DNA from: Microbacteriaceae bacterium
Lineage (GTDB): Bacteria > Actinomycetota > Actinomycetes > Actinomycetales > Microbacteriaceae
Length of the DNA stretch: 53,941 bases
Reading direction: 5' to 3'
Assembly (NCBI GenBank): GCA_024639935.1
Contig: JAHEFZ010000010.1
Coordinates: 1 to 53,941, forward strand
In this document: piece after piece, positions 4,367-51,044 of the stretch
How positions within the stretch are numbered: position 1 is the stretch's first letter
Layout of the letters: every line of letters starts with the position of its first letter
Translations under genes and position numbers: made by a program
The notes under the pieces: generated by a model
Told to the model about the DNA's origin: nothing
The model's database searches: none
The model's input: only the letters and a program-made list of their open reading frames with translations

Positions 4367-5911
4367 GTGACTGGAAACATCCCACCGGTGATTCGGCCCG
4401 AACATGCTAGCCCGCGGTCACTTGAACTCTTGGTGTCAGAGCTCGGGCTTAAGTCAATCGGCAACCTGCGTGGTGTGGAAGTTTCTGGACTGACGGTGAT
4501 GACTCGAGAGGTGATATCTGGCGACATTTTTGTTGCAGTGCGCGGTGCGAATCGCCACGGTGCCGAATTCGCCCTCGATGCACGTAAAAACGGTGCAGTC
4601 GCCATTCTCACGGACGAAGACGGTGCGCTAATTGCGGCAGAGTGCGAATTGCCCTTAGTTATCGCCGAATCACCACGCGCGTCACTCGGCGACATCGCAC
4701 GGTGGGTTTATCGGACCGATGACGATGCTCCACAATTTTTTGGAATTACCGGCACCAATGGGAAAACGTCAACGGCCTATTTGCTTGATGGGGTGTTGCG
4801 GCAAATTGGGCTCACAACGGGTTTGTCGACAACAGCAGAGCGCCATATCGCGGGGGAGATTTACGTCTCAAGATTGACGACGCCCGAGGCCAGCGAATTG
4901 CACGCGCTTATTGCCCGAATGAAAGAAGCCGCTGTGCGCGCGGTCGTAATCGAAGTCTCCGCTCAGGCGTTGACCCACAATCGTGTTTCTGGAATCAGGT
5001 TTGATGTCGTCGGGTTCACCAACCTCTCACATGACCACCTCGACGACTATTCCGACATGGACGACTATTTCCGCGCAAAGCGCGGGCTCTTCACCCCCGA
5101 CGTCGCCCGTCGTGGAGTTGTCTCACTCGACACACCGTGGGGGCACCGGATCGTTGACGAATCACACATTCCCGTCACGACAATTTCGTCAACAGGTGAT
5201 CCGTCCGCTCACTGGCAGGTTGAGGTGACGGAGGACAACCCGGCTTTCACGGCGTTTCGCTTGACGTCGGTGGACGGTGTGTCCATTTCGACACGTGAAC
5301 CGGTCATCGGTCACCACATGGCTGCGAATGCTGGGCTTGCCCTGGTCATGCTGATTGAGGCGGGATACGAACCTGATGCCATCGCCGCGGCTCTGGAACG
5401 GGACAACGGAATTCAAACCTATTTGCCGGGGCGCACCGAAAAGGTGTCGGGTGACAAGGGCCCCAATGTTTACGTCGATTTCGGGCATTCACCCGACGCG
5501 TTTGAACACACACTCTCGGCCGTTCGGCGTTTCACGCCAGGTCGCACGATCATGGTTTTCGGTGCGGATGGAGACCGCGACGCGTCGAAGAGATTTGATA
5601 TGGCACGGGTCGCCGCCGAGGGGTGTGACATCCTCATCATCACGGATCATCACCCTCGATTCGAAGACCCCGCATCCATTCGAGCGCAATTGTTGGATGC
5701 GGCCCGATCGGTTGCTCATGGACCCGAAATTTTCGAAGAATCGCCGCCCGAGAATGCGATTCGGCTCGCCGTTTCTCTTGCGCGAGATGGAGACTCCATT
5801 TTGTGGGCAGGCCCAGGACACCAGGATTACCGGGATATTCGAGGGGAGCGGACTCGTTATTCCGCCCGCGAACTTGCTCGCTCCGCCCTGGCCGAAGCCG
5901 GTTGGGCATGA
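4367..5911 (+). CDS. murE: UDP-MurNAc-tripeptide synthetase MurE, probably not meso-DAP specific
   Basis: A 514-residue Mur ligase that adds the third stem residue to UDP-MurNAc-L-Ala-D-Glu in the cytoplasm. The ATP loop GTNGKTS is at residues 129-135, followed by TTPEAS, FTNLSHDHLD and the C-terminal PGHQDYRDIRG. The specificity motif reads His428-His-Pro-Arg, where meso-DAP enzymes have DNPR, so another diamino acid (lysine, ornithine or diaminobutyrate, as is common in Microbacteriaceae) is likely; this is inference. The GTG at 4367 is chosen because AAGGAAG precedes it and the frame upstream lies inside ftsI. It overlaps the following murF remnant by four bases. Confidence 0.92.
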   Translation: MTGNIPPVIRPEHASPRSLELLVSELGLKSIGNLRGVEVSGLTVMTREVISGDIFVAVRGANRHGAEFALDARKNGAVAILTDEDGALIAAECELPLVIAESPRASLGDIARWVYRTDDDAPQFFGITGTNGKTSTAYLLDGVLRQIGLTTGLSTTAERHIAGEIYVSRLTTPEASELHALIARMKEAAVRAVVIEVSAQALTHNRVSGIRFDVVGFTNLSHDHLDDYSDMDDYFRAKRGLFTPDVARRGVVSLDTPWGHRIVDESHIPVTTISSTGDPSAHWQVEVTEDNPAFTAFRLTSVDGVSISTREPVIGHHMAANAGLALVMLIEAGYEPDAIAAALERDNGIQTYLPGRTEKVSGDKGPNVYVDFGHSPDAFEHTLSAVRRFTPGRTIMVFGADGDRDASKRFDMARVAAEGCDILIITDHHPRFEDPASIRAQLLDAARSVAHGPEIFEESPPENAIRLAVSLARDGDSILWAGPGHQDYRDIRGERTRYSARELARSALAEAGWA

Positions 5912-6336
5912 TGGATGTCGTGGCGCTCGCCGACGGCACGATACTTCTCGACGCCCACGACGCCACCGATTTTGATGCGGTGAAACATGCACAGCGAGCG
6001 CTAGCGGAATATCGAATCAATGGTTTTGACACGGTTCATGTCGCAGGACTACTTGGCGGAGAAAACGTTGCCGACGACTTGGACGCTCTCGGGCGTGTCA
6101 ACGTTCGGCTCAACATTCATCACCTCGTTGTGGTGGGGGAGAAAGCCCATGGTATGCACCGTGCGGCCGAACACGAAGGGTCGTGGGATGGAGAGTCAAT
6201 CCCCGTTTCTGACGTGGCACGCGCCTACGATGAGATTACGAGTCTTCGCGGCCCCCGGGTAGCGATTCTTGTGACCGGCGGAGTGGATACGTCGCTTGGC
6301 GAAATAGTCGAGCGACTGAAGGGGGATCGACCATGA
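5908..6336 (+). CDS. murF: Stand-alone degenerate C-terminal domain of MurF (truncated murF)
   Basis: Only 142 residues occupy the murF slot, where about 450-470 are expected. They match the third (C-terminal) domain of MurF: the stretch [17 protein letters not shown] (residues 61-77) and EGSWDGES (90-97) are typical. The N-terminal substrate domain and the central ATP-binding ligase domain with GTNGKT are absent, so the protein cannot ligate D-Ala-D-Ala. Within the kept domain the motif normally DAYNANPDS reads DAHDATDFD (15-23), and the usual GEM loop and final lysine-serine loop are changed. Yet the frame is clean, it begins about where the domain begins, and it is coupled by ATGA overlaps to murE and mraY. 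It may be a retained remnant or a repurposed partner protein. The ATG at 5911 is an alternative start. Confidence 0.8.
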
Positions 6337-7430
6337 GGTCTGTACTCTTTGGCGCTAGTTTCGCCCTCGCGTTTTCGCTTTTCATGACACCGGTCTTCAT
6401 TCGACTGTTTATTCGCCTCGGCTGGGGTCAGTTGATTCGCGACGACGGGCCACAAAGCCACCACACCAAACGTGGAACGCCGACAATGGGCGGAATCGTC
6501 ATCATTCTTGGGGCAAGTGTCGGCTACGCGCTCGGGCACCTGGTCGAGCAGGATGCGCCCACCCTCAGCGGCCTTCTCGTCATTCTGATGATGACAGGAA
6601 TGGGAATTGTCGGATTCATCGACGACTTCACCAAGATTCGAAAACAGCGAAGTCTCGGTCTCGGGGGCTGGGCGAAAGTTCTCGGACAGGCGATCGTTGC
6701 TACGGTTTTTGCCCTTCTTGCCATCAATTTTCCCGATGAGAACGGAATCACCCCCGCCTCGATGGCGGTCAGCGCGGTGAGAGACATAGCGTGGCTCGAC
6801 TTCGCCGTCATCAGTGGAATCGTCGGCGTCGTCCTTTACGTGTTGTGGACCAACCTCATCGTCATCTCTACGGCGAACGGTGTCAACGTTGCTGACGGAT
6901 TGGACGGCTTGGCATCCGGAAGCGCGATTCTTGCCATAATCTCCTACGTCATCATCGGCTTCTGGCAATTTAATCAGTCATGTTTTGGCTCTGCCCTGGA
7001 CCCCGAAGTGGCGTACAAGTGTTACGAGGCTCGAGACTCTCTTGACCTAGTTGCCATTGCTGCCGCCATCGCTGCGAGCACAGTCGGGTTTCTGTGGTGG
7101 AACACAACACCCGCTCAAATTTTTATGGGGGACACCGGGTCGCTCGGTCTCGGCGGTGCGATTGCCGCCCTCGCCATTTTGACCCGAACCGAACTCCTCA
7201 TCATTCTCATCGGCGCGATTTTCGTGATCGTGGCGGGTTCGGTCATCATTCAGCGGGCTTACTTCAAATTGACGAGGGGAAAGCGGATTTTTCTTATGAG
7301 TCCGCTTCATCACCACTTCGAACTAAAGGGTTGGGCCGAGATAACTGTCGTTGTTCGCTTCTGGTTGATCGCGACGCTCGGAGTCGGTTTAGGTGTCGGT
7401 TTGTTCTACCTGGAATGGGCGAGCCAGTAG
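6333..7430 (+). CDS. mraY: Phospho-MurNAc-pentapeptide transferase MraY
   Basis: A 365-residue polytopic membrane enzyme that moves phospho-MurNAc-peptide onto undecaprenyl phosphate to make lipid I. About ten membrane segments are visible. The conserved sites are present: [18 protein letters not shown] near residue 34, the Asp-Asp pair in [33 protein letters not shown], and the late [13 protein letters not shown]. Length is normal. The start overlaps the murF remnant (ATGA) and the stop shares one base with the murD start. Nothing suggests loss of function, in contrast with the genes before and at murG. Confidence 0.96.
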
Positions 7431-50953: not shown

Positions 50954-51036
50954 GCGCGGGTGGCGGAATGGCAGACGCGCTAGCTTGAGGTGCTAGTGCC
51001 CTTATGGGCGTGGGGGTTCAAGTCCCCCTTCGCGCA
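50954..51036 (+). tRNA. tRNA-Leu (anticodon GAG)
   Basis: An 83-base class II tRNA. The acceptor stem pairs GCGCGGG with TTCGCGC, discriminator A; the anticodon stem CTAGC/GCTAG holds the loop TTGAGGT with anticodon GAG; a long variable arm (GCCC/GGGC) is typical of leucine; the T arm is GGGGG-TTCAAGT-CCCCC. CCA is not encoded. It reads CUC and CUU codons. Confidence 0.96.
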
Positions 51037-51044
51037 CGCGATGG

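Follow-up and report, generated by a model that had tools for sequence, protein, structure and literature searches.

MurF is an essential enzyme that has been studied as a drug target, and it is suspected that the Mur ligases assemble into complexes. MurT, the Mur ligase of the MurT/GatD lipid II amidase, has no UDP-binding domain, and its substrate is lipid II. The Mur synthetases of Mycobacterium tuberculosis are reported to interact with FtsZ, FtsW, FtsQ, Wag31, and the SepF ortholog (PMC3605390). The MurE-MurF fusion of Bordetella is reported to bind MurG, which gives MurF a place in a Mur complex in addition to its catalytic role (PMC6420597); MurF in that fusion is complete and active, whereas the dcw cluster that we describe here has the C-terminal domain only. 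In Pontimonas salivibrio CL-TW6T, the peptidoglycan genes are described as mostly typical of Microbacteriaceae, and the main text of that description does not mention murF (PMC6106888). An earlier note on the DNA analyzed here, made from the letters alone, suggested that its dcw cluster is in an undescribed state. In the literature that we searched (most subscription papers were outside its scope), there was indeed no description of a stand-alone MurF C-terminal domain in dcw, or of a link between such a domain and a membrane-type MurF.

The window (the whole stretch of 53,941 nucleotides that we analyzed) is the entire contig C19 of a Microbacteriaceae genome of 1.31 Mb in 23 contigs, which is 95.8% complete. 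Its dcw cluster spans mraZ to ftsZ. On the forward strand, murE (4367–5911) is intact, with all three Mur ligase domains and a score of 356 bits against TIGR01085, which is over the cut-off. mraY (6333–7430, forward strand) is also intact. They are separated by a single open reading frame of 142 codons (5908–6336, forward strand, from ATG to TGA), which we will call the remnant. The stop codon of murE (5909–5911) overlaps the ATG of the remnant, and the ATG of mraY at 6333 overlaps the remnant's stop, with ATGA at each junction. This agrees with the earlier note, which described an intact frame without internal stops and with 4-base overlaps on both sides. An alternative in-frame start, a GTG at 5803, would give 177 amino acids; relatives fit the ATG at 5908. 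Close relatives with a name come from an uncultured Microbacteriaceae bacterium and an Actinomycetota MAG (82–83% identity in the remnant protein). Elsewhere on the contig, its sole tRNA is a tRNA-Leu (gag) at 50954–51037, and a scan of the window with Rfam found nothing beyond this tRNA.

Judging from its sequence, the remnant corresponds to just the C-terminal domain of MurF, a homology that is clear through its relatives. Pfam found no Mur domain in it at E ≤ 1, and TIGR01143 (MurF) matched it at model positions 298–418 with E = 0.055 and 12.4 bits, which does not reach the cut-off of 288.6 bits. Among the matches listed, the best was to a MurF frame of 479 codons (genome G054; E = 1.1e-20), and the remnant aligns to residues 325–464 of a full MurF of 467 amino acids (E = 3e-21). 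Like MurF, the remnant is encoded between murE and mraY, and it has an 18-residue stretch as in the full MurF proteins of the same family. Unlike MurF, it has neither the N-terminal domain nor the central ATPase domain. The P-loop, RWRM, and KSS motifs are gone, the DAYNASPDS motif of its relatives has become DAHDATDFD, and the NAxP motif of the C-terminal domain is absent from all 38 of the shortened forms that we read (described below). By itself, the remnant cannot act as a ligase, and the earlier note was right that only the third Mur ligase domain is left and that its motif is degenerate. One block is strictly kept: EGSWDGES, at residues 90–97 (6175–6198, forward strand), fits the pattern EGSWxGES that is found in 38 of 38 shortened forms. 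An AlphaFold2 model of the remnant, built from three close sequences, had a pLDDT of 50 and was unusable in detail; the ten best Foldseek matches of this low-confidence model were all Mur-type ligases. Two other matches of the remnant, to uroporphyrinogen-III synthase (NF005568, E = 3e-4, 19.7 bits against a cut-off of 273) and to the biotin carboxylase C domain (E = 0.08), were taken as chance.

The shortened gene is not peculiar to one assembly. Of 15 genomes in the genus, 14 (the window's own included) have a murF shortened in this way and free of stops; the 13 others are 52–83% identical to the remnant. This rules out the collapse of an assembly and shows that the truncation is common to sister genomes. 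The sole genus genome without a match to the remnant, G008, is 61% complete. Across 299 genomes of the family, the remnant matched 295 at E ≤ 0.01; these matches include the other shortened forms (29 genomes and G058) and are otherwise MurF reading frames where we inspected them. Four family genomes gave no match: G029 carries a full MurF, G184 has a contig-end piece only, and no MurF over the TIGR01143 cut-off was seen in G094 and G230. We read 38 shortened forms, from 29 genomes with the second MurF-type enzyme described next, from eight further genomes of the genus, and from G058. They are 139–337 residues long, with no internal stops. (The other genomes among the 270 without that enzyme were judged by the lengths of open frames among the matches listed and by a subset of loci that were read.) While reading loci, we also noticed that in several genera (L151, L155, L157, L159, and L163), murE is apparently not at its place in dcw: there is only a 23–32% match there, which is probably murF itself.

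The earlier note proposed that a MurF might be encoded elsewhere, and a genome-wide search did find a MurF-type enzyme with a P-loop. The best TIGR01143 match in the window's genome is a protein of 509 residues (contig C7, 71374–72900). It scores 190.2 bits, under the cut-off of 288.6. Because it has hydrophobic segments within residues 1–153, we will call it TM-MurF. It has the ATPase domain (Mur_ligase_M, 103 bits, E = 2.4e-29) and the C-terminal domain (Mur_ligase_C, 24.9 bits, under the Pfam cut-off of 28.4), with the P-loop GSYGKTS and the NANP-type motif DDSYNANP. No N-terminal UDP-sugar-binding domain (PF01225) was found in it at E ≤ 0.1, and it leaves positions 1–63 of TIGR01143 unmatched. 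In 25 aligned rows of TM-MurF, the P-loop and DDxYN(A/S)NP are present in 25/25, and EGSW is absent from 25/25. In the window's genome, the gene order is gpsA, an alpha/beta hydrolase, TM-MurF, and then ddl, and the order hydrolase, TM-MurF, ddl was found in all 25 TM-MurF loci that we examined (23 of the family's 29, and 2 from another family; for instance, L009:6650–10080). TM-MurF resembles MurT in being a Mur ligase without the N-terminal UDP-sugar domain, and MurT structures are weak sequence matches of TM-MurF (and weak fold matches of the remnant's low-confidence model). However, membrane segments and a MurF-type NANP motif set TM-MurF apart, and its neighbors are the hydrolase gene and ddl instead of gatD. 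We propose that TM-MurF most likely performs the ligation of D-Ala-D-Ala and is the working MurF, which would make UDP-MurNAc-pentapeptide or its lipid-linked form. The hydrolase encoded upstream may belong to the same step.

The distribution of TM-MurF fits this proposal. A search of the family at E ≤ 1e-30 gave 30 matches; apart from one canonical MurF (in G084, 108 bits), these are TM-MurF, which is thus present in 29 of 299 genomes. In all 29, the murF of the dcw cluster is shortened, and in 28 of the 29, there is no MurF over the TIGR01143 cut-off. In the exception, G124, another canonical MurF, of full length, is encoded outside dcw (L112, G124:C1:1902000–1916000) and is followed by a distant second Ddl-like gene, with 29% identity. 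Conversely, G058 (90% complete) has the short form, and TM-MurF was not found in it. Nine less complete genomes of the genus (61–83% complete) were searched separately at E ≤ 1e-15. TM-type matches were found in G011, G012, G004 (in two pieces), and G003 (partial), and neither kind of MurF was seen in the other five. In total, 10 of the 15 genus genomes showed TM-MurF. Farther afield, TM-MurF is rare in a sample of the class (3/345, including the window's genome) and commoner in a sample of the phylum (23/346, including the window's genome and G388). None of the 21 other TM-MurF genomes in the phylum sample has a MurF over the TIGR01143 cut-off, which supports TM-MurF as a working MurF.

Given the near-perfect co-occurrence of the remnant and TM-MurF within the family, we considered that the two might be parts of a split enzyme, with the small C-terminal domain as a subunit or activator that supplies something TM-MurF lacks. 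TM-MurF does lack EGSW as well as a recognizable UDP-binding domain. However, TM-MurF has a C-terminal domain of its own with DDSYNANP, even if its Pfam score is under the cut-off. Furthermore, two genomes from another family of the order, G570 and G388, have TM-MurF and no MurF over the cut-off, and no match to the remnant was found between their murE and mraY. The distance from the aligned end of murE to mraY is about 77 bp (L164, approximately 6205–6283; L165, approximately 10877–10799). Since no murF is left there, the C-terminal domain is dispensable in these two genomes, and we consider a split enzyme to be unlikely.

The remnant is under purifying selection. With a codon model, we estimated omega at 0.112 for all 14 sequences from the window's genus (g1), 0.116 and 0.097 for two subsets of these, 0.142 for g74, 0.119 for g31, 0.098 for g80, and 0.177 for g38. 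Likelihood ratio tests against omega = 1 gave 140–569 in the seven sets (two of which are nested in a third). Synonymous sites appear to be near saturation in the wider sets, as judged from tree lengths, and the closest set (0.097) is the safest. For comparison, omega was 0.016–0.033 for mraY and 0.022–0.042 for murE, so the remnant's values are about 2–8 times theirs. If the EGSW block is removed, omega is 0.08–0.11 in all seven sets. Estimates for segments of 20–30 codons were noisy: the segment from EGSW to YD (residues 107–108) ranged from 0.001 to 0.451, and two values of 1.000 resemble failures of the optimizer. EGSWxGES is kept in 38/38 short forms across codon trees with lengths of up to 18, but it is also present in most full MurF proteins of the family, so its role in the full enzyme may be catalytic or structural. 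Other invariant residues of the remnant (Gly, Arg, Gly, and Ala) are encoded by many codons; for instance, one arginine is invariant in 38/38 shortened forms with four or more codons in use. Because the residues are invariant while their codons are free, the remnant protein itself is constrained.

The earlier note had argued that the remnant is not plain decay, and omega of 0.10–0.18, which is not near 1, bears this out. The opposing view is that the remnant is a translated pseudogene that is being lost slowly and stays in frame only to avoid polar effects. This would account for lengths that fall from 337 to 139 residues between clades, for the total loss in G570 and G388, and for an omega above that of the neighboring genes. 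But omega of around 0.1 argues strongly against it, as do the lack of stops in 38 forms and the persistence of EGSWxGES over such long trees. We consider slow decay to be very improbable.

There is also a signal at the DNA level. TACGAT (6226–6231, forward strand), which encodes Y107 and D108 after the EGSW block, is a −10-like hexamer about 100 nt before mraY. It shows no synonymous variation in the shortened forms (TAC in 37/37 and GAT in 35/35). Among 33 conserved aspartate columns in the remnant, mraY, and murE, this is the only one that is all GAT; the next reaches 0.54. Just 8 of 527 columns in these three proteins use a single codon, namely the two of YD and six others (TTC, ATC, CAG). 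The actinobacterial −10 is TANNNT, which was found in 37/38 short forms (two read TACGCT and still fit) as compared to 32/73 genomes with the full form (one further locus, G061, gave no motif). GAT is used in 30 of 46 YD pairs from full-form genomes. So the element may predate the truncation, and a role of the DNA may overlap with that of the protein.

In light of this signal, we considered that the 3' end of murF might be kept as a promoter for mraY and later genes, while the frame couples the translation of murE and mraY and the protein is a by-product. A promoter for mraY inside the tail of murF is possible. Coupling fits with the position of the start, which in 38/38 short forms is no more than 8 nt from the murE stop, although the nearest start codon was picked, so this is partly built in. 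On the other hand, residues are conserved all along the domain while third codon positions vary freely, omega is low outside the EGSW block as well, and six other columns have a single codon too. No sigma-70 pair was called in the window (the scan gave 0 promoter-like sites), G159 keeps a short form whose hexamer fits neither TACGAT nor TANNNT, and G570 and G388 manage without such a piece. Also, the dcw promoter reported for M. tuberculosis is upstream of murE (PMC3605390). Overall, we view a cis-element and spacer as the sole reason for keeping the remnant as possible but rather doubtful.

How often was murF shortened? In a tree of the flanking genes (seven dcw proteins from 50 loci), the shortened state appears in at least five clades, and the placements have supports of 0.97–1.00: g74 with g31 and g1; two genomes inside g43; g38; one genome inside g84; and g80 with g45. 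Both g43 and g84 also include genomes with a full MurF. The parts that were retained differ as well. In coordinates of full MurF, they cover roughly 325–464 in g1, and they begin at 252–258 in g74 and in G124 of g38, at 271–333 in g31, at about 165–230 in g80, g45, and the rest of g38, and at 123 in G159. In g43, the C-terminal domain is kept from 294 or 326, and G127 adds a weak N-terminal stretch (E = 0.004). G159 falls with g43 in the tree of TM-MurF (0.82) but not in that of the flanking genes, a discrepancy that suggests transfer. In the tree of the C-terminal domain, however, a single clade of shortened forms was not rejected by the AU test (p = 0.709, with 24 of the 38 short rows and 21 full rows), or when using core columns only (p = 0.268, with 15 short and 21 full rows). 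The shared loss of catalytic columns may pull the shortened rows together in this tree. Because the C-domain tree allows one clade, the case for independent origins comes from the flanking-gene tree and the differing retained segments. We conclude that the catalytic part of murF was probably removed, and the C-terminal domain kept, several times over; alternatively, the gene may have been shortened once and the locus then transferred.

On balance, we lean towards the view that catalysis passed to TM-MurF and that the old C-terminal domain was kept for a non-catalytic job, probably as a scaffold. The basis for this is the distribution of the shortened forms, the loss of the catalytic parts, purifying selection, and the near-exclusive presence of TM-MurF. 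In this lineage of Microbacteriaceae, a membrane-anchored TM-MurF encoded beside ddl would have displaced the canonical MurF. Once freed from catalysis, the old murF would have been trimmed by deletions that removed the substrate and ATPase domains without closing the frame, and its C-terminal domain would have been kept as a separate small protein that is made between MurE and MraY. This protein might act, without catalysis, as a module for interaction or regulation in the cytoplasmic peptidoglycan and divisome machinery, and its EGSWxGES region would be the likely contact. The promoter-like element in the same stretch of DNA was perhaps kept too. The reports on the M. tuberculosis synthetases and on the MurE-MurF fusion fit with an interaction module, without proving it. 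Several observations weaken our proposal: G570 and G388 lack the domain, the remnant's omega is above that of mraY and murE, there is constraint at the DNA level, EGSWxGES is present in full MurF, TM-MurF was not found in G058, five incomplete genus genomes showed no MurF of either kind, and a single origin was not rejected.

If MurF catalysis was removed yet the C-terminal domain was kept, then a long-standing question, whether MurF does more than ligation, becomes testable. And a membrane-type MurF that is nearly mutually exclusive with the full MurF, that has membrane segments, and that has no recognizable UDP-binding domain raises the question of at which step D-Ala-D-Ala joins. A bolder idea, which we think has a small chance of being correct, is that TM-MurF adds D-Ala-D-Ala to a lipid-linked precursor after MraY, so that the last two cytoplasmic steps of peptidoglycan synthesis are swapped, and that the orphan C-terminal domain, with its EGSWxGES region, serves as an adaptor linking MurE, MraY, and the divisome to one another. 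If true, MurF in actinobacteria would turn out to have a hidden function apart from catalysis.
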